From the NCBI GenBank assembly GCA_016931225.1, contig JAFGFE010000006.1:1-64000 (forward strand): DNA of 64,000 nucleotides. The letters are read 5' to 3'. Positions 6,781 through 64,000 of this stretch are shown here, piece after piece. Within the stretch, counting starts at the first letter, position 1. Each line of letters starts with the position of its first letter. The notes beneath the pieces are model-generated. The model made no database searches. It saw only the letters and a program-made list of their open reading frames with translations, and had not been told where the DNA came from. Position numbers and translations under genes: made by a program. The DNA comes from Candidatus Zymogenaceae bacterium. GTDB taxonomy: Bacteria > Desulfobacterota > Zymogenia > Zymogenales > Zymogenaceae.

Positions 6781-7860
6781 TCACCGACCCGGGGTGGCCC
6801 CCTCATCCGGCGGTGAGTAGAGGATCAGATACGTGAAGGCGTATTTCCCGGTACCCGGCACCCGATCTATGCAGAAGTCGGCCCGATTCACCTGCCGCCC
6901 GAAATAGTCGATCTTCCAGGGTCCGGTTACCACGCAATACCCCGAGACATCGTCCGTGCGATCGGTCAGGGTATCCACTTCGATGATCTGCCAGGCGTCG
7001 TCAAACGAATCGGTCAGCCAGGTTTGGCCTGTCAGTGATTCGTCCCCCAGTTTCACCACCCAGTCGGTGTACGCCATCCAGATTTCAAAAATCCCCGGTA
7101 TCGCCATGTCGGAAAGCGTCTGGAGGTCCCTCCCCTCAAGAGCGGCAATGACCACATCCCGGCACTCCCCCGGGTTTTCAAAAAGCTTGATATCCTTTTC
7201 ACATGCAATATATGACAGATACGGAACGACCAATTCGTCGACGGTAACCGCCTCAAGCTCCATACGGGCGTCCGGATATGCCTTCGTGAGATAGTCGAAC
7301 ACATCGTGTGCGTCATCATACTTACCCAGGTATACCAGGGCCTCTCCCCGGGTAACCAGTGCGGTCAGGATCAACTCCAAAAGCAGAGGGCTGTTCTCGA
7401 TCTGCTGGCGGGAGAAATTCGCCTCGATGTCGGAAACGATCCCTTCGGCCGTTCGGGCGGCGTTTTTGAACGATTCCTCCTCGATATCTTCGTATACACT
7501 GTTTATCCGATCGAAGTACGACGGAACTTCCACCAGCGACTTCCTCGCCTCCTTATCGTCAAGGAGGAGATACGTACCGAATATCCATCCCTCGACGCCC
7601 CGATACCTGATGAAATACCAGTGATCGGTTACCCCGTCGATCGTCTCCGGTTCCTCCAGGCGATTGAGGATGCACACCGCCTCCTTCATCTCACCGTTGC
7701 CGTCGATGGTGACGACGGTCCCGGCGTGCATCGTTGGCCTGGAGAATACGCGCACCTCTTCACCGATAATCACGGCATATTCCGTCTCGAATCCCCGGGC
7801 GGACATCCCCCCAAGCAGAACGGCGCATGCGATCACACCGGCGATAAACAGTCGCATCAT
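6781..7860 (-). CDS. Exported protein with N-terminal bacterial SH3 domain
   Basis: About 359 residues, beginning at the second of two candidate regions: the ATG at 7860 is preceded by AAGAGGAAAT and opens a signal peptide (MMRLFIAGVIACAVLLGG). A longer frame to 7983 would overlap the transporter gene and lacks a signal, so I reject it. Residues about 25-100 form a bacterial SH3-like domain (EEVRVFSRPTMHAGTVV through GVEGWIFGTYL). The rest is helical, with a possible tetratricopeptide-like unit around ALVYLGKYDDAHDVFDYLTK, followed by a beta-rich tail. It probably binds the cell wall or another envelope partner. Confidence 0.7.
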   Translation of the reverse strand: MMRLFIAGVIACAVLLGGMSARGFETEYAVIIGEEVRVFSRPTMHAGTVVTIDGNGEMKEAVCILNRLEEPETIDGVTDHWYFIRYRGVEGWIFGTYLLLDDKEARKSLVEVPSYFDRINSVYEDIEEESFKNAARTAEGIVSDIEANFSRQQIENSPLLLELILTALVTRGEALVYLGKYDDAHDVFDYLTKAYPDARMELEAVTVDELVVPYLSYIACEKDIKLFENPGECRDVVIAALEGRDLQTLSDMAIPGIFEIWMAYTDWVVKLGDESLTGQTWLTDSFDDAWQIIEVDTLTDRTDDVSGYCVVTGPWKIDYFGRQVNRADFCIDRVPGTGKYAFTYLILYSPPDEGATPGR

Positions 7861-16885: not shown

Positions 16886-17761
16886 CTATTTGAATATTTT
16901 CTTTACGCCCTTTATCGCCTTTTCACCACCGGATTTCAGGACATCGGCCCCGTCGGACGCACCATCCCCGATTTTCTCCACCCCTCCCTCGACTCCGTCG
17001 ACCACCTTCTCCCCGCTGTCCTCCAGGTATCTCCCTCCCTTTTTCAACAGCTCCTTCGCCCGCTCGCTGTTCAGGGTCATCTCCCGCTGGAAGCGGTCGA
17101 TCACATCCTTTGTCAGCTTCTGAGGTGATCCTGGGAGCACGCCCGTGATGGCGGATAATCCCTCGTTCGCGGCGACCAGAATGGGCTCCATCCCCTTCGC
17201 CCCTTTCTCTTTGGATTCCACCGCCACCGTGCCGTCGAGGCATATCAAATCGGTTCGCTGGGCCTCTTTGTCATGCACCACACCGAAGTCGGTCCCCCGG
17301 ACGCCGATCGTGACGTTTTCCGTCTCCACCTCGAAAAGACCCGCCTCTTCCGGACGGGACACCACCAGCGCCCGCACCCTACCGAACACCAGCTCCAATC
17401 GGGTGGTGTCCTTCCTGGTCATCTCCACCATCCCCATTTCACGAATCACCACGTGGCTGTTGGGGCCGATCAGGAGCACGCTCCCGTCGGGAAGCTCAAG
17501 CTCCACCGAACCTTCGGCGTACGTCCGAAGCTCGTCGCCCTCGCTTACGGGAGTGCCCGCAACAAAGGGCGTCCAGGTATCGGAGCCTGCGGGGAGTATC
17601 TCAACGATCCCATCCTGATACAGCACGGAGGCCGAGGGATCGGACCCGCTCAAAGAGCAGTCGGTCGTGGCAACGGCGATGATCCCAATGAGAACAACAA
17701 CTCGAACGATCATAATCAGTGAGCGCTGTAATGGATGTCTCATAGTATAAAGTGTTTCCAT
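16886..17761 (-). CDS. FecR-domain exported protein
   Basis: About 291 residues. After a hydrophobic export segment (IMIVRVVVLIGIIAVATT) comes a FecR-like domain: VLYQDGIVEILPAGSDTW, EGDELRTYAEGSVELELPDG, and ENVTIGVRGTDFGV. The C-terminal third is amphipathic and rich in Gly, Asp and Lys, with a run of GVEGG/EKIGDGASDG elements that could be flexible. FecR domains outside iron uptake systems are common and may bind polymers or act as envelope scaffolds; no FecI sigma factor or TonB receptor is adjacent. The start is uncertain: a TTG at 17794 and ATGs at 17761 and 17743 are all in frame. Confidence 0.7.
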   Translation of the reverse strand: METLYTMRHPLQRSLIMIVRVVVLIGIIAVATTDCSLSGSDPSASVLYQDGIVEILPAGSDTWTPFVAGTPVSEGDELRTYAEGSVELELPDGSVLLIGPNSHVVIREMGMVEMTRKDTTRLELVFGRVRALVVSRPEEAGLFEVETENVTIGVRGTDFGVVHDKEAQRTDLICLDGTVAVESKEKGAKGMEPILVAANEGLSAITGVLPGSPQKLTKDVIDRFQREMTLNSERAKELLKKGGRYLEDSGEKVVDGVEGGVEKIGDGASDGADVLKSGGEKAIKGVKKIFK

Positions 17762-17882
17762 GTATCTCTGCTTTTCCGTTTGAACAAAAAACAAATTATT
17801 CTACCACAATCAGGGCTCTCATGAAATTTAAATATGAAGAAAAAAGCACATTTGTTAACACGGCACCTTCGACGCGGGAAGA

Positions 17883-53777: not shown

Positions 53778-55535
53778 TTAAAACAACTCGAGGATTTGTA
53801 CGAAATTGTAACCGTATCCGTTAAATGTCACGATCACTTCCGCCGGTTCAAACAATCCGTTGTATGATGCGAACGGTGCAAAACAGGATACCGGGTTTCC
53901 GCAGTTGAAATCATCATACAGGGCGAAAACGCCTCCGAAGCCGTCCAGATAACCGGTTTCGGCGAGATAGTAGTCCCGCGTAAGGGTGAGATAGTAGAAT
54001 GTTCCACAGGTTGAATCCGCCGCAATAATCGTCACTTCCATTACATCAGACGGTATATTCGGTGCAATCAGAAGCACCGCCATTCCCCGGTTGCACGGAT
54101 AGGGCTCCGGCCAAAAAATTTCCTGGACCGTAAGACCCGCGGGCAAACCGCTGGGTACGTATGTCGGAAATTCCAGGTCCCCCTCGGTCTTCACCAGCGC
54201 AAACCCATCCTCCTCGGACAGCCAGAAGGTCACCACGCCGTCCCAGGTACGGCCGTGCAGGCTCAACTGCCACGTCACCGTGATGATCACGCTCCCCTTA
54301 TATACCCGATCGATCGTGTAGCTGAACACCGCTCCGGGATTGCTGGCGAGAAACTCCTCTATCGCCGATATCAGCTCCTCCTTGGAGAAATATCCCCCCG
54401 CAGAGCCCAGGTAATCGTCCGATATCAAATCCTCCAGCGCACTGAGGTCTCCGGTCTCTAACACCTCGAAAAACGCCTCCACATACTCCCAGCCAACCTG
54501 CTCGTATGTCAGATCCCAGTACGTGATCATCCATGGACCGAAATCCATCGGATCGGACACCAAACCCGCATCGTTCGTCGCCCGAACCATCACCTCGTAC
54601 ACCATCAAGTGATCCGGCACATACTCGAACGACCAGTGGGTCGTCCCTTCCGCCTCATGCCAGGTGAACCCCGCGTCAAGGCTGTACTCCACCTTCACGA
54701 TATCGTATTCGTCGTCCTCCGCGTCACCAACAATCTCTACGGTGCCCCTCGGCGTCAGGCTGTCCCGAAGCAGCAGTATCCCCTCCTCCACGTCCTCCAG
54801 GTTGATGGTCCCGTTCAATATCGCCCGAACGACCTCGGGAGGAAACCCGGCGCCCTCGCCGCCGGCGCCCTCGCCCTGAAACCGCATCTCCTCAAGAAAC
54901 TCAAGCAGCTTCTCGGCGTCCACGCCCAGCACCTCACCCGGCATCCCGTCCGCCGACACCAACAGCTCCTCGCTGGTGCACACCATCACCGCGTCCAGCA
55001 TGGGATAATTGGTCGACACCACCTCAACACAGTCCTGAATACTGATAATGGTCGTGACAAACGTGTCGGGATCAAAAATCACGCCGAAGTCCGTGCCCCG
55101 TACGCCGATGGACACGTTCTCCGTCTCCACCGTGAACGAGGACTCCTTGCTTACAAAGGGCGTCACCGCCGCCCGTATCTTGCCGGAAACCACCTCGAGC
55201 GTCGTCTTGGAGACATTGGTGATCTCCAACAATCCCAGCTCCTTGATGAGCACCCGACTGGAGGAACCGATCTTCACCTTGCTCCCGTCGGGAAGTGCAA
55301 GGATCACCTCGCTCTCCGTATCCGTCTCGATCTCGTCGCCCACGGATAATACAGCACTCTCCGGAAGAGACACCCACTCCTCCGTCCCGGCGTAGCGCAC
55401 ATCGACAAACCCGTCGATATACACCACCGACGCCGTGGACGCATCACCGTTCTGGGCGAAGACAATGCCGACCAAGAAAGCGGCACACAATGTAACGCCC
55501 AACAGTATCCAAGTGACGCTTCGAGTAATCTTCAT
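53778..55535 (-). CDS. Large FecR-domain exported protein
   Basis: A 585-residue protein with a signal peptide (ILLGVTLCAAFLVGIVFAQ). Residues about 35-200 form a FecR-like domain that shares SIGVRGTDFGVI with the other FecR protein at 16.9 kb. A linker with GEGAGGEGAG and a beta-rich domain (about 260-340) follow. The segment YVEAFFEVLETGDLSALEDLISDDYLG (split here for length) suggests an NTF2/SnoaL-like fold at about 360-465. A C-terminal domain with several cysteines ends in EVIVTFNGYGYNFVQILELF. No iron-uptake genes are adjacent. Role unknown. Confidence 0.75.
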   Translation of the reverse strand: MKITRSVTWILLGVTLCAAFLVGIVFAQNGDASTASVVYIDGFVDVRYAGTEEWVSLPESAVLSVGDEIETDTESEVILALPDGSKVKIGSSSRVLIKELGLLEITNVSKTTLEVVSGKIRAAVTPFVSKESSFTVETENVSIGVRGTDFGVIFDPDTFVTTIISIQDCVEVVSTNYPMLDAVMVCTSEELLVSADGMPGEVLGVDAEKLLEFLEEMRFQGEGAGGEGAGFPPEVVRAILNGTINLEDVEEGILLLRDSLTPRGTVEIVGDAEDDEYDIVKVEYSLDAGFTWHEAEGTTHWSFEYVPDHLMVYEVMVRATNDAGLVSDPMDFGPWMITYWDLTYEQVGWEYVEAFFEVLETGDLSALEDLISDDYLGSAGGYFSKEELISAIEEFLASNPGAVFSYTIDRVYKGSVIITVTWQLSLHGRTWDGVVTFWLSEEDGFALVKTEGDLEFPTYVPSGLPAGLTVQEIFWPEPYPCNRGMAVLLIAPNIPSDVMEVTIIAADSTCGTFYYLTLTRDYYLAETGYLDGFGGVFALYDDFNCGNPVSCFAPFASYNGLFEPAEVIVTFNGYGYNFVQILELF

Positions 55536-58913: not shown

Positions 58914-58942
58914 TTGACTGTGTCTCATCGGTGCCGTATAAT
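58914..58942 (+). promoter_or_regulatory. Near-consensus promoter of the tyrosine-repeat peptide locus
   Basis: TTGACT and a perfect TATAAT are separated by 17 bases, the best-matched promoter together with that of rpsT. Transcription would give a leader of about 135 bases before the peptide gene, which includes a small hairpin (TGACGAT with GTCGTCA, 58974-58992). No alternative sigma site was noted. Confidence 0.75.
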
Positions 58943-59082: not shown

Positions 59083-59496
59083 ATGGACGATAAGAAGAAC
59101 AAGATAAATATGCCGCCCATCTTGGAAGAAAAGGTCTCCAGGCGTGAGGCTATGAAACGTATGGCCAAAGGATTGGCCCTGGCCGGATCGCTCGGGGTGA
59201 CTGCCATAGTTACGCAGGGCCAGGGTGAATGCGGCTACGTCAATATGTACTACAACTACGGCGACTATTACTACAACTACGGCGACTATTACTACAACTA
59301 CGGCGACTACTACTACAACTACGGCGACTACTACTACAATTACAGCGATTACTATTACAATTACAGCGATTACTATTATAATTACAGCGATTACTATTAT
59401 AATTACAGTGATTACTATTATAATTACGGAGATTACTACTACAACTACGGAGACTATTACTACAACTACGGTGATTATTACGTAAATTGGTGGTAA
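59083..59496 (+). CDS. Tyrosine-rich heptad-repeat peptide, probable radical SAM substrate
   Basis: A 137-residue peptide. Residues 1-18 are charged, then SRREAMKRM (19-27) and a hydrophobic run GLALAGSLGVTAIV resemble a twin-arginine export signal. A single cysteine (Cys50, in GQGECG) precedes the repeats. Residues 56-132 are 11 perfect heptads YYNY[G/S]DY: four with Gly, four with Ser, three with Gly; the end is YVNWW. Tyrosine makes up 46 of 137 residues. The ATG is preceded by GTGAGG at seven bases, and a near-consensus promoter is upstream. Three radical SAM-related genes follow, which suggests that the repeats are modified. I do not recognise the exact family; a structural or redox surface peptide is the alternative. 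Confidence 0.85.
   Translation: MDDKKNKINMPPILEEKVSRREAMKRMAKGLALAGSLGVTAIVTQGQGECGYVNMYYNYGDYYYNYGDYYYNYGDYYYNYGDYYYNYSDYYYNYSDYYYNYSDYYYNYSDYYYNYGDYYYNYGDYYYNYGDYYVNWW
59248..59478 (+). repeat. Eleven 21-base tandem repeats encoding YYNY[G/S]DY
   Basis: Exactly 11 units of 21 bases. The first two are identical, as are units three and four. Later units differ nearly only at silent positions, and one non-silent site switches Gly to Ser and back. The fourth codon of every unit is TAC. Confidence 0.95.
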
Positions 59497-59520
59497 CAGA
59501 CCGGATAAGGTCTCCGAACG

Positions 59521-59610
59521 CGCCGATACGCCGACGTGGCCCCCCGTCACTCGATAATACGCATCTGTTGTCGTTTCCGGGAAGGGCACTGACGGATATC
59601 GGCGTTTTTT
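59521..59610 (+). terminator. Possible attenuator between the peptide gene and its maturation genes
   Basis: CGCCGATA (59521-59528) and TATCGGCG (59597-59604) form an eight-base inverted repeat with a long 68-base interval, immediately followed by six T. Partial termination here would give more peptide than enzyme message. The long loop keeps confidence low. Confidence 0.35.
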
Positions 59611-59640
59611 ATCCTCGCTTCCCGTTATCGGAGTATATGA

Positions 59641-60678
59641 GTGGCAAATCTCCTGCTGACAACCCGGTGCGTACGATCCTGCCCCTACTGTTTCGCCAGA
59701 AAAGAGATGGAAAATTCGCCGGACGGCCACACGCTCTCCTGGGAAAACTTCTTGTATGTGGTGGATTTCCTCGAGGCTTCCTCGGCACGCCACATTTCAC
59801 TTCTCGGCGGTGAACCGACGCTCCACCCCGATTTTGTCGATATCGTTCTCTATCTCATGGAACGCCGCTTTCACGTGACCGTCTTTACCAGCGGCATCAT
59901 GTCCGAAAATAAACTGGGGGAACTTTCGGAGCACCTTACCTCCATTCCGATCGAGCATCTCAACTTCGTGGTGAATATCAACAACCCGGAGCAAACACCG
60001 GCGGCTGAAAATGAAACAAAGCAGCTTCATAGATTTCTCTCTATCATGGGACCCTGGAGCGCCGTCGGCTTCAACATCTACCGCACGGATTTCGAGATCG
60101 ATTTCATCTTCGACCTCATCGGTCGATTCGGACTGAAGCGGCATGTTCGGTTCGGAATGGCCTCACCCATCCCGGGTGTCGATAATCTTTCTATTTCCCC
60201 CGATGATATGAAAGACGTCGTCGCCCGCCTCTATTCCTATCGTCCCCAGTTCGACCGGTTCCGTGTGAGCCCCGGCCTGGATTGCGGCTTCCCGATGTGC
60301 GCCTTTACCGACGAGCAGCTCGGGTGGATATTCCGCGTATCCGGGCCCGTACGGTTCGGGTGCGGACCGGCCGTGGATATTATGCCGGACCTGTCTGTGT
60401 ACGCATGTTTTCCCCTTTCGACGCTGCACAAGCGATCGCTCTTGGAATTCAACTCACTGCAGGAAGCGGCGGATTTCTATATGGACCTCAACCGAAAAAT
60501 CAGGACCGAGCTGGCCGGTATCTTCGATGAGTGCGACGGCTGTCGACATCGGGAGGAAGGGCGCTGCAGTGGTGGGGGTGTCTGTCACCTCATGAACAGC
60601 TTCATGAATGAGGCGCCGGTTCGCCTGATGGAGATAGAAAGTGAGCTCGCCAAATCTCGTTTGTCCTCACAACCGTAA
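59641..60678 (+). CDS. Radical SAM/SPASM enzyme of the peptide locus
   Basis: A 345-residue enzyme. Cys10, Cys14 and Cys17 (CVRSCPYC) bind the SAM cluster; LLGGEPTLHPDF is the usual glycine/proline motif. The C-terminal part is SPASM-like, with CGFPMCAF, FGCGPAVD, DLSVYACFP and CDGCRHREEGRCSGGGVC binding further iron-sulphur clusters. Such enzymes modify ribosomal peptides by radical chemistry in the cytosol. It begins with GTG, eight bases after GGAG; an ATG four bases upstream is in another frame. The next gene overlaps its end by 38 bases. Confidence 0.85.
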   Translation: MANLLLTTRCVRSCPYCFARKEMENSPDGHTLSWENFLYVVDFLEASSARHISLLGGEPTLHPDFVDIVLYLMERRFHVTVFTSGIMSENKLGELSEHLTSIPIEHLNFVVNINNPEQTPAAENETKQLHRFLSIMGPWSAVGFNIYRTDFEIDFIFDLIGRFGLKRHVRFGMASPIPGVDNLSISPDDMKDVVARLYSYRPQFDRFRVSPGLDCGFPMCAFTDEQLGWIFRVSGPVRFGCGPAVDIMPDLSVYACFPLSTLHKRSLLEFNSLQEAADFYMDLNRKIRTELAGIFDECDGCRHREEGRCSGGGVCHLMNSFMNEAPVRLMEIESELAKSRLSSQP

Positions 60679-61501
60679 ACTGTTCGACCGCCTGGGGAGG
60701 CAATTGATCACCGTTCGGGTGAACGATCCGGAACAGGTCTTTTTCGCCGCTCGGGACGTTTGGGAGTCCGGGAATCGACTCTTTTCGGTCATCGTCGATA
60801 CCGGCAATTCATTTGAGGATATCGATATCCCGGAGAACTGGGGAGGGATTTCCGTCGCCCTCTTCCTCGCCCGAATGGGGCGTTTTCGGAATGTGAAGAA
60901 TAAGCTCGAACGGATGCGGCGGATGAAGGTGCGGGTATACCTCCCCTGCAGTGATCCTGAGAATATCACATCCCTTCAGATACTCTCATCGGTGGGCGTG
61001 TCCGTCGCCTCCGGGATTATCCCGGGTCCGCATCATTGGGAACCATTGCTGGATCTGATGACCTTCGCCGTACTGGGACCCGCTCCCCACTCGCCCATCG
61101 ATCCCTTCGTTTTCGTTGCAGACAACTTCGAAACCGGCGGCTCGGTGGATTGGCGGGGGATATACTTCGAAGACCCGAACGAGTTCTTCCACCTGGACGA
61201 TCGGGGACGGGTCGCCCTATCCCACCAGGAGCTGACGGCGGGCGATTTCATCTTCGACGACCCCTCCGGCATCGACTCCCGTGAGGATAATCCCGAGTAC
61301 GCGCTTCGGACCAGCCCGAGAGAGCGATTTTTCCTCACCGATCATCCCTGTTCCCGCTGCCCAGGATGGCGGGTCTGTATGGGGGCGTTTGTGCAAAACG
61401 GCTCCGTGCCCACGGGCTGCAGCGAATTTGCGACGGAAATGCTGGAGGTAGTGGAGCAATATCGGGCGAGTAAAGGCACACCCAGGGAGAAGCGATCATG
61501 A
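60641..61501 (+). CDS. Radical-SAM-like partner lacking the CxxxCxxC motif
   Basis: A 286-residue protein. The first part has barrel-like segments (VFFAARDVWESGNRLFSVIV, ILSSVGVSVASGIIPGPHHW), but no CxxxCxxC motif for the SAM cluster. The C-terminus retains SPASM-like cysteines (Cys237, Cys240, Cys246 and Cys260 in CSRCPGWRVC and GCSEFATEM). It probably came from a radical SAM/SPASM enzyme and may now bind the peptide or a cluster for its neighbours. The GTG start follows GGAGATAG. It overlaps the genes on both sides (38 and 4 bases), showing tight coupling. Confidence 0.7.
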   Translation: MSSPNLVCPHNRKLFDRLGRQLITVRVNDPEQVFFAARDVWESGNRLFSVIVDTGNSFEDIDIPENWGGISVALFLARMGRFRNVKNKLERMRRMKVRVYLPCSDPENITSLQILSSVGVSVASGIIPGPHHWEPLLDLMTFAVLGPAPHSPIDPFVFVADNFETGGSVDWRGIYFEDPNEFFHLDDRGRVALSHQELTAGDFIFDDPSGIDSREDNPEYALRTSPRERFFLTDHPCSRCPGWRVCMGAFVQNGSVPTGCSEFATEMLEVVEQYRASKGTPREKRS

Positions 61502-63600
61502 CGACCATGATTTTCAAGCCCACCGAGGCCTGCAACGGCAACTGTATCTACTGCGACGTGGTCAGAAAGGACGCGGCCGGGGACAACACATTGTCTGTTG
61601 AGCGCCTGGAGCTGTTGTTCGTGCGCATCAACGAGTACCTTGAGAATCATCCCCGGGAGCGGTTTCAACTGATCTGGCACGGAGGGGAGCCGCTCATTCT
61701 CGGTCCCGATTACTTCGAGCAGGCCTATCGTTTCCAACAAACCCACTGCGCGGAGACGAAGGGACGCCTCACCCATGAAATCCAGTCCAACATGACCCTG
61801 TTCTCTTCGAAGTTCGTCGAGATATTCAAAAAACTCGGCATCACCAAGGTGAGCACCAGCTACGATCCAATACCGAACATCCGGGGCCTGGGAAAAACCA
61901 TAGACTCAGACGCCTACAACAGGAGTTTTCTGAAGGGCGTCCGTGCCCTGGAGGAGGCGGGGCTCGATTGGGCGATGATCTACGTGGTGACCAGGTTCTC
62001 CCTGGAAAGACCCCTCGACCTGTTTTACTTCCTGACAAACTTCACGCCGGACGGATCGGTGATGTTCAACCCGGTCTATTTCTTCGAGCGCCAGCCGATG
62101 GACCTCGCCATCACCCCCGACGAGTTCGTCGACTTCCTGGGAAAAATCTTTACGGTCTGGTGGCCCCACAGGGATCGCTACCCCACGATACAGCCCTTCT
62201 ATTCTTTGACCAAGACGATCGTGGACGGACAGCCCTCGCTTATCTGCGGCGAATCCGGAGCCTGCGCCGATTCCCACATCAGCCTTGGACCGTCGGGGAC
62301 CCTCTCCCAGTGCGGGAGATCTTCGGATTGGAACCTTATCCGACTCGGCTCCCTGGATGACATCACCCTCGACGAGGCGTTCGCCGCCGAGGGGAAGGAG
62401 ACACTGAGGGAGAGGCAGGCAATCGTCCGTCAGGGCGATTGTGCGTCGTGCCGGTTCTGGGATATCTGCCACGGCGGGTGCCCGCTGGACGCGATGGTGG
62501 ATACCGGCTCGTTCATGAACAGGTCCCCGCTGTGCGTCGTCAAACGCCGATTCATCGAGGAATACTTCGAGCCGATTACCGGCGTTCGGTATACTCCGGA
62601 AGAAAAGCGGGAGATAACCGCCGCGCCTCACCCCGAATATCGACCAATGAGGCCTCATATGCCGCCGCCTCCCCCGGGGCGGATTCGGCCTGCGGATCGT
62701 CCCGCTACAGGGAACATCTGGATCAATCCCATCGGGGGCCTCGGAGACGCGCTGATGCTCTCCGGCGTACTCAAGGCCGCCGTCGACCGGGACCCGACGA
62801 GGAGCTTTAAATTGATCGCCCGGTCGCCCTTCGTCCCGATCTTTTCCGGGCACCCGGCGATTTCCGAGATCGGGCATCCGAAACCGAATTCTCCCATCAT
62901 CGCCACGGCATACTGGGACGATCCCGATTTCAGAGAGGGACGCATGCGTGCCTACCAGGTGCTCGCCCGGCTCTTCAACCTGCCGACACCCATAGAGGAA
63001 ACACTATACCTCGCGGACGATCACGGCCCTGACCCGGACCTGTTGGCCCGAATACCGCTTAAGGAGACAAACATTCTCGTCGCACCGTCGGCGGGAACGC
63101 CCAGAAAGGAAATGCCCATAGAGATGTGGGAAGAGCTGGTAGGCCGAATGATCGATGAGGGATTCGGTGTCATTCAGGCGGGCACCTCAACCTCCCGCCA
63201 AATCAGGGGCGCCTACAGCCTTCGGGGTATCCTGACGATACCCGAAGCGGCGATGCTTCCCGGATACGTCGACGCGGTCGTCACGTCGGCCTCCTTCTTT
63301 ATGCACGCGGCCCACCTGTGCGACACCGCGGCCGTCGTCCTGTGGGGCCCCACCGATCACCGGCAGTATGGATACAGCGGTCAGGCACACCTCCAGGCAC
63401 ATTGCCCGACTGATCAGAATGTCCCCTGCATCAGAAGCGGCCGCGGCCCGGGATACGGCTCCCCCTGCCCCCTGGGGATGGATCACTGTATGCACCGTCA
63501 CGATATCGACGACGTATTCCGCTCACTCATTGAACTACTTGAAGGCACAAAAGACGCCCGCCGTCAGGCTGACCCGTCCGGCTCCCGGCCGGCACGATGA
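61498..63600 (+). CDS. Radical SAM/SPASM enzyme fused to a family-9 glycosyltransferase
   Basis: A 700-residue fusion. Residues about 1-375 form a complete radical SAM/SPASM enzyme: CNGNCIYC (Cys12, 16, 19), IWHGGEPL, and the SPASM spacing CASCRFWDICHGGC (Cx2Cx5Cx3C) plus a final Cys. A proline-rich linker (MRPHMPPPPPGR) follows. Residues about 402-690 resemble GT9 heptosyltransferases: IWINPIGGLGDALML, ILVAPSAGTPRKEMPIEMW, ASFFMHAAHLCDTAAVVLWG. One polypeptide may therefore modify and glycosylate the peptide, or the GT9 part may only bind it. The ATG overlaps the previous stop by four bases. Confidence 0.85.
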   Translation: MTTMIFKPTEACNGNCIYCDVVRKDAAGDNTLSVERLELLFVRINEYLENHPRERFQLIWHGGEPLILGPDYFEQAYRFQQTHCAETKGRLTHEIQSNMTLFSSKFVEIFKKLGITKVSTSYDPIPNIRGLGKTIDSDAYNRSFLKGVRALEEAGLDWAMIYVVTRFSLERPLDLFYFLTNFTPDGSVMFNPVYFFERQPMDLAITPDEFVDFLGKIFTVWWPHRDRYPTIQPFYSLTKTIVDGQPSLICGESGACADSHISLGPSGTLSQCGRSSDWNLIRLGSLDDITLDEAFAAEGKETLRERQAIVRQGDCASCRFWDICHGGCPLDAMVDTGSFMNRSPLCVVKRRFIEEYFEPITGVRYTPEEKREITAAPHPEYRPMRPHMPPPPPGRIRPADRPATGNIWINPIGGLGDALMLSGVLKAAVDRDPTRSFKLIARSPFVPIFSGHPAISEIGHPKPNSPIIATAYWDDPDFREGRMRAYQVLARLFNLPTPIEETLYLADDHGPDPDLLARIPLKETNILVAPSAGTPRKEMPIEMWEELVGRMIDEGFGVIQAGTSTSRQIRGAYSLRGILTIPEAAMLPGYVDAVVTSASFFMHAAHLCDTAAVVLWGPTDHRQYGYSGQAHLQAHCPTDQNVPCIRSGRGPGYGSPCPLGMDHCMHRHDIDDVFRSLIELLEGTKDARRQADPSGSRPAR

Positions 63601-63645: not shown

Positions 63646-64000
63646 ATGCATCCGGAATTATTCACTATCGGGGAAGTTGTCGTTCACTCCTACGGCGTCT
63701 TCGTCACCCTCGGACTGCTTGCGGCCGTGGTCTCGTTTCTGTGGGAGCTGAAACGGAGGGACGACTCGTTTTGGATCGGCGTCGACATCCTCCTATTGAT
63801 GATTTCTGCCGGGCTTCTCGGCGCGAAGTTATTCCACGTCTTGTTCTCTCTCTCGGACTACCAGGAGGGACCCCACACGATTCTCTCCCTCATCTTCTCC
63901 GGGTGGTCGGCGGCCGGGGGGCTGTTGGGGTCGCTCCTCGCCCTGGTCATCTATTTTCGGAAGAAGGGCCTTGACGGCTGGTATTGGATGGACACCCTCA
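63646..64000 (+). CDS. lgt: Prolipoprotein diacylglyceryl transferase, 5' part
   Basis: The frame runs off the end of the window, leaving about 118 residues. The opening MHPELFTIGEVVVHSYGVFV, then LLMISAGLLGAKLFHVLFS and FSGWSAAGGLLGSLLALVIY are characteristic of Lgt, which moves diacylglycerol to the lipobox cysteine of lipoproteins at the inner membrane. It begins 45 bases after the fusion gene. The ribosome site (GAGG, about 14 bases away) is weak. Confidence 0.9.
   Translation, partial: MHPELFTIGEVVVHSYGVFVTLGLLAAVVSFLWELKRRDDSFWIGVDILLLMISAGLLGAKLFHVLFSLSDYQEGPHTILSLIFSGWSAAGGLLGSLLALVIYFRKKGLDGWYWMDTL

Follow-up and report, generated by a model that had tools for sequence, protein, structure and literature searches.

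A tyrosine-rich heptad-repeat precursor of a Zymogenaceae bacterium and its recurrent radical SAM cassette: a predicted triceptide-like polymer with a Tat-type leader

Among the closest described systems are the triceptides, which so far are short peptides with few cyclophanes. Their rSAM/SPASM maturases (YxdB, YhhB, XncB, OscB/GrrM and MscB) act on aromatic-x-partner triads in which the partner is Asp, Arg, Ser or Asn. The proven links are Tyr-Asp (YxdB), Tyr-Arg (YhhB), Phe-Ser (MscB) and Trp-Asn/Asp (OscB), and on Tyr-x-Asp the enzyme YxdB forms a bond between Tyr C3 and Asp C-beta (PMC11002830). The GrrM/GrrA system also combines a SPASM maturase with a repeat precursor, and in the His-Xaa-Ser system (HxsA/B/C) a three-residue repeat goes with a pair of rSAM proteins. 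In TvgA/TvgB, the source of a poly-cyclopropylglycine peptide, a single rSAM enzyme acts repeatedly on a tandem repeat. TibC and other autotransporter heptosyltransferases pair a heptosyltransferase-like enzyme with a repetitive exported protein (PMC4358343).

In the present study, we analysed a window of 64,000 nucleotides, the whole stretch of DNA under study, from a Candidatus Zymogenaceae bacterium. It carries a Tyr-rich repeat precursor followed by enzyme genes, with these features:

58914..58942, forward strand: promoter-like site TTGACT-17-TATAAT 5' of the precursor gene, with 11 of 12 consensus matches (chance alone predicts 2.1 such sites; two were present)
59083..59496, forward strand: precursor gene, 137 aa (open reading frame; homologous leaders at 36 of 39 loci)
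59083..59232, forward strand: leader or signal region, residues 1 to 50, MDDKKNKINMPPILEEKVSRREAMKRMAKGLALAGSLGVTAIVTQGQGEC (leader alignment, leader profile matches)
59137..59157, forward strand: twin-arginine motif SRREAMK (sequence; TatA/TatC adjoin three homologous precursors)
59230..59232, forward strand: Cys50 in GQGEC, possible lipidation site (sequence; lipobox-like Cys here in 11 relatives)
59248..59478, forward strand: heptad array of eleven units YYNY[G/S]DY (repeat finder, in-frame translation)
59479..59493, forward strand: C-terminal tail YVNWW, which adds one Tyr-x-Asn triad (in-frame reading)
59516..59611, forward strand: long stem then T6 between the precursor and enzyme genes, possible terminator or attenuator (fold z = -2.76)
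59641..60678, forward strand: rSAM1, a radical SAM protein of 345 aa with CxxxCxxC and a C-terminal Cys cluster (Pfam Radical_SAM, E 1e-15)
60641..61501, forward strand: ORF2, a cluster-less rSAM/SPASM homologue of 286 aa (homologue alignment, AF2 model)
61498..62625, forward strand: rSAM2/SPASM domain, likely cyclophane-forming maturase (sub-cut-off cyclophane profiles, AF2 model)
62650..63600, forward strand: family-9 glycosyltransferase (GT9, heptosyltransferase-like) domain fused to rSAM2 (Pfam PF01075)
63646..64000, forward strand: start of a divergent Lgt-like gene, which exits the window and ends at about 64371

As in the triceptides, an rSAM/SPASM maturase gene adjoins the precursor, and the partner residues of the precursors are those of the proven triceptides. 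The locus and its relatives differ from them in the long Tyr-rich arrays (up to about 50 triads), in a three-protein enzyme set that includes a cluster-less homologue, in a fused or linked glycosyltransferase, in the Tat-type leader and in an rSAM2 that scores far under the cut-off of every named model. Unlike GrrA, the precursor is Tyr-rich rather than Gly-rich and has other partner genes. Compared with the His-Xaa-Ser system, Tyr takes the place of His; one of 32 precursors weakly matches HxsA4, and neither HxsC nor HxsD is among the matches listed for the window proteins. TvgA/TvgB differs in its TVGG repeats, its cyclopropane chemistry and its peptidase/transporter pair. For TibC, the comparison covered the GT9 Pfam match, and the PDB search gave no sequence match to this enzyme.

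The eleven-unit array was recovered by Tandem Repeats Finder (period 21, 11.1 copies, 59248-59481) and by in-frame reading, as a block of four YYNYGDY units, a block of four YYNYSDY units and a block of three YYNYGDY units. The initial annotation had described an array at 59248-59478 in which Gly or Ser is the sole residue change, in blocks of 4-4-3, with all other variation silent, and the column count bears this out: seven of the 21 columns of a unit vary, six at third codon positions and one as the Gly/Ser switch (codon 5, position 1, G/A). At least six of seven variable columns would fall at third positions by chance with P = 8.5e-4 (hypergeometric). Differences were smallest between adjacent repeat units, which fits block duplication. 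The proposal that the heptad itself is under selection holds inside this array alone, where silent changes dominate; in relatives, however, unit length and positions 5 to 7 drift. The initial annotation had named such drift in related peptides as evidence against its reading, and this is what the comparison returned. Its proposal of a cyclophane site at Tyr-[Gly/Ser]-Asp is plausible and gains support from the adjacent rSAM/SPASM gene and the Tyr+2 bias described below, but a second triad, Tyr-Tyr-Asn, had been overlooked, so the array holds 22 candidate triads (11 Tyr-Tyr-Asn and 11 Tyr-[Gly/Ser]-Asp). Nor did that reading take in the cassette, the glycosyltransferase or the Tat-type leader.

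The precursors of the relatives have a common leader, [S/T]RR[E/D]A[L/I/M]KR[I/M]A, then a hydrophobic stretch and a Tyr-rich core. The cores are diverse and include YYNYFRYSRS decamers in a sister genus, runs of YTSG and YSS, YANYTNYADYTN and YNYSYSDY. Over 4000 core residues, Asn, Asp or Ser occupied the Tyr+2 position in 61% of instances, compared with 35% after shuffling (z = 25), and Tyr+3 was again Tyr in 57%. Because repeat units are not independent, each precursor was also tested alone, with kinship among precursors left uncorrected; in 39 of 40 precursors the Tyr+2 bias lay above the mean of the shuffles, and in 39 of 40 it surpassed the value at Tyr+3. The triad fit is poor at L036 and L069. 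In another genus of the same family (G001, where the array ends at the contig end), the units read YYNYSNA, YYNYSDS and YYNYNDA; here the heptad length, Tyr-Tyr-Asn and Tyr-x-[Asn/Asp] are held and positions 5 to 7 drift. At the level of sequence, this pattern is as triad chemistry would predict, unlike an exact-heptad constraint. Exact-heptad conservation was rejected on the occurrence of YYNY[SN][ND]x and YYNYFRYSRS in two sister genera and of YTSG and YANYTN in more distant relatives. The conserved element, as judged from these cores, is a triad that begins with Tyr, takes any residue in the middle and ends with Asn, Asp, Ser or Arg.

The precursor ORF starts at an ATG with GAGG upstream, and profile searches placed it in no NCBIfam or Pfam family. 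The idea that the genome of the window encodes several precursors was unsupported, one being found. The stem behind the gene was not called by the standard terminator scan because its loop is long; it could hold enzyme expression under precursor expression. LptF and LptG lie upstream of the precursor gene. FecR-like domains occur in two secreted proteins of the window, at 16886-17794 (by eye) and 53778-55535 (Pfam).

When 84,980 species genomes were scanned, 57 loci emerged, which were annotated by script. The gene order rSAM1, ORF2, rSAM2 recurs, often followed by GT9 or a GT9 fusion; with each duplicate entered once, the three enzymes stand together at 39 loci, with a recognised precursor on either side of the enzyme genes at 36 of them and GT9 detected at 24. 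According to the record titles of these MAGs, which may be wrong, the cassette loci cover about nine phyla: Desulfobacterota-type Deltaproteobacteria, Nitrospirae, Nitrospinae, Bacteroidetes, Ignavibacteria/Chlorobi, Gemmatimonadetes, Elusimicrobia, Spirochaetes and Armatimonadetes. The cassette is unnamed, and the enzyme group may have been mentioned earlier in the triceptide literature. At L024, the cassette is complete and a Tyr-rich precursor was not found nearby; a small secreted protein that is not Tyr-rich (6911-7345) lies beside it. In an Acidobacteria MAG, a Cys-rich repeat ORF ending YYTYYQTYYQTYYVYYS (L067, 6994-7530) lies near an rSAM1 relative and is perhaps a different RiPP precursor. 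The precursor at L058 (8615-9586) has a Tyr-rich region followed by a globular-looking C-terminal domain of about 180 aa. A small protein that resembles, by eye, a proteasome/HslV-type hydrolase comes directly after the precursor at L055 (13155-13868) and L059 (13913-14599); a role as maturation protease is possible.

The rSAM1 protein has orthologues of 41-58% identity in four genomes from the phylum of the window, and two of these also share its family. It was rejected as the obvious cyclophane enzyme, since its best sequence matches are of the MoaA, viperin and PqqE types and since it is present without rSAM2 at loci where no Tyr-rich precursor was found (L033, L035, L061). L034 has the same enzymes as these three, and its contig starts just before rSAM1. 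An ORF2-GT9 fusion was noted at L033 (11001-12572), L034 (1082-2635) and L035 (11001-12590), with rSAM1 present and rSAM2 and the Tyr-rich precursor absent. As for ORF2, CxxxCxxC is found in 0 of 41 homologues and the C-terminal Cys motif in all 41. It belongs to no Pfam or NCBIfam family, and three members weakly match the general SPASM model. Its AF2 model (pLDDT 91.6) has as nearest solved fold the peptide rSAM/SPASM enzyme SuiB (Foldseek E 0.013, probability 0.99, TM 0.46), and on this model ORF2 is read as a putative degenerate rSAM partner.

The rSAM2 and GT9 domains form one protein of 700 aa (61498-63600), in which rSAM2 retains CxxxCxxC and the SPASM cysteines, and the GT9 domain passes the Pfam cut-off (E 3.9e-8, 33.4 bits, cut-off 22). 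Family membership of rSAM2 was defined as a score over the curated NCBIfam cut-off. By this measure, the GrrM/FxsB/XyeB-type maturase named by the initial annotation has to be given up, with 75.8 bits against 310 for GrrM/OscB (TIGR04261), 60.9 against 370 for FxsB (TIGR04269) and 47.6 against 450 for XyeB (TIGR04496). Membership was rejected in the same way for YhhB (NF041707; 81.5 bits, cut-off 445), DynA (145.1, cut-off 450), DarE (107.4, cut-off 650) and HxsB (48.6, cut-off 370). Every one of the 30 rSAM2 members matches the sulfatase-maturase models as well as those of DynA and DarE; matches to GrrM, AmcB and YhhB occur in most. The sulfatase-maturase score nearly equals the cyclophane-enzyme scores, so homology does not settle the chemistry. 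Superposition of the AF2 model (pLDDT 90.2) gave a TM of about 0.8 with anSME and with ChlB, an rSAM protein whose structure was determined together with its precursor leader. When the partner class (Ser versus Asn/Asp) was placed on the rSAM2 tree, it changed 7 times against 13 after shuffling, with none of 200 shuffles as low, and this clustering may partly reflect shared ancestry. Overall, rSAM2 lies near DynA, DarE, AmcB, YhhB and GrrM and is likely a cyclophane maturase, as far as its reaction can be assigned from its relatives.

The Tat consensus is SRRxFLK, to which SRREAMK is similar, and the twin arginine stands before a hydrophobic stretch as in Tat substrates. In the alignment of 32 precursors, R20 and R21 are invariant and A23 and R26 nearly so; the RR pair is missing at L052 and L060, both outside this alignment. 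TatA and TatC come straight after the precursor genes at three loci (L056, L063, L065; Pfam-confirmed) of Spirochaetes and Bacteroidales. At L056 (13298-15912) the precursor is followed by TatA, TatC and a 566-aa protein, whose beginning resembles TatA/B (by eye) and which carries a third radical SAM domain. The window's genome has TatC, as do 33 of the 38 cassette genomes; it was not found in the other five, two RR-bearing Elusimicrobia included. The NCBIfam Tat model matches 2 of 32 precursors. Tat use by these precursors is predicted as likely and not universal, because two precursors are without RR and TatC was not found in five genomes. A literature search on Tat-exported RiPPs found no paper that matched all four search terms. 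After the hydrophobic stretch, loose patterns detected a lipobox-like Cys in 11 leaders and an AxA-like site in 23. In the window precursor, GQGEC departs from the canonical lipobox, and the loose pattern scored it as AxA-like. With the linked, divergent Lgt-like protein (96.9 bits, cut-off 118.9), the genome has three Lgt homologues, and an Lgt-like gene adjoins the cassette in genome G002 too.

The precursor, the cassette, the triad bias, the Tat-type leader and the Tat genes at three loci are read directly from sequence; crosslinks, sugar, lipid and final role are predicted. In our proposal, the repeat forms the core of a precursor made on the ribosome, and rSAM2/SPASM, aided by rSAM1 and ORF2, would act on it in the cytoplasm and bond the Tyr ring to the beta carbon at i+2, giving each heptad up to two cyclophanes, at Tyr-Tyr-Asn and at Tyr-[Gly/Ser]-Asp, and the chain up to about 24 in total, each at a cost of 2 Da; the family-9 glycosyltransferase might add sugar. 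The Tat system carries folded proteins, and the stiffened chain would leave whole through it, to be released or lipid-anchored outside the inner membrane. There we expect it to serve as a rod-like material of the surface or periplasm, and not as a small peptide that diffuses. We put the probability of a multi-cyclophane, triceptide-like polymer that is stapled in the cytoplasm, exported by Tat and sometimes a lipoprotein at roughly 60%.

Several other explanations have to be weighed against this proposal. The enzymes could perform another tyrosine chemistry, such as darobactin- or dynobactin-like ether or C-N crosslinks, spliceotide-like tyramine excision or other ring sizes. The named relatives that score best with rSAM2 include DynA, DarE and DarW, such enzymes form ether, C-N and larger C-C rings (PMC11002830, PMC9055067), and two catalytic rSAM proteins suggest two reactions. 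We nevertheless regard this as rather unlikely, in that the sharp Tyr+2 preference for triceptide partners points to C-C rings between i and i+2, and tyramine excision requires Xaa-Tyr-Gly (PMC11002830), whereas Gly directly follows just 7% of Tyr. It seems distinctly improbable that the chain is cleaved, before or after export, to many small cyclic peptides with an antibiotic or signal role, as in a multi-core RiPP. The tandem units do resemble multi-core precursors, as was discussed for TvgA (PMC9062424), and a protease-like gene lies 3' of the precursor at L055 and L059; however, no cassette-wide peptidase or ABC exporter was seen, unit lengths are irregular in most relatives, and the Tat-type leader with a lipobox-like Cys in 11 precursors suggests an intact, sometimes anchored protein.

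That the RR leader is an enzyme docking site alone, unrelated to Tat export, we consider improbable. The five genomes in which TatC was not found and the weak NCBIfam Tat score would agree with it, but some of those genomes may be incomplete, the hydrophobic stretch is followed by an AxA-like or lipobox-like site in 34 of 42 leaders (loose patterns), and dedicated TatA and TatC stand at three loci in two phyla. Finally, Tyr-rich repeats occur in unmodified structural proteins, and the product could be an unmodified surface or redox protein that simply lies beside unrelated radical SAM genes. This we find highly improbable, as precursor and enzymes occur together at 36 of 39 loci in about nine phyla, with the precursor on either side.

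The broader extension of the stapled, Tat-exported polymer is tentative, and we hold it at somewhat short of even odds: these loci may encode an undescribed and widespread class of Tyr-rich chains with dozens of cytoplasmic cyclophane staples, whose stiffness forces exit through Tat, sometimes through a Tat system of their own, and which, released or lipid-anchored and perhaps glycosylated, serve as a rigid surface fibre. If true, long protein-like chains bearing tens of strained C-C staples would be produced in many bacterial phyla by a set of three enzyme proteins, one of them a cluster-less partner, and exported via Tat. Radical SAM chemistry would then reach from small natural products to structural material, and the array would offer a natural repeat substrate for enzyme studies and a rationale for the Tat export of a RiPP.
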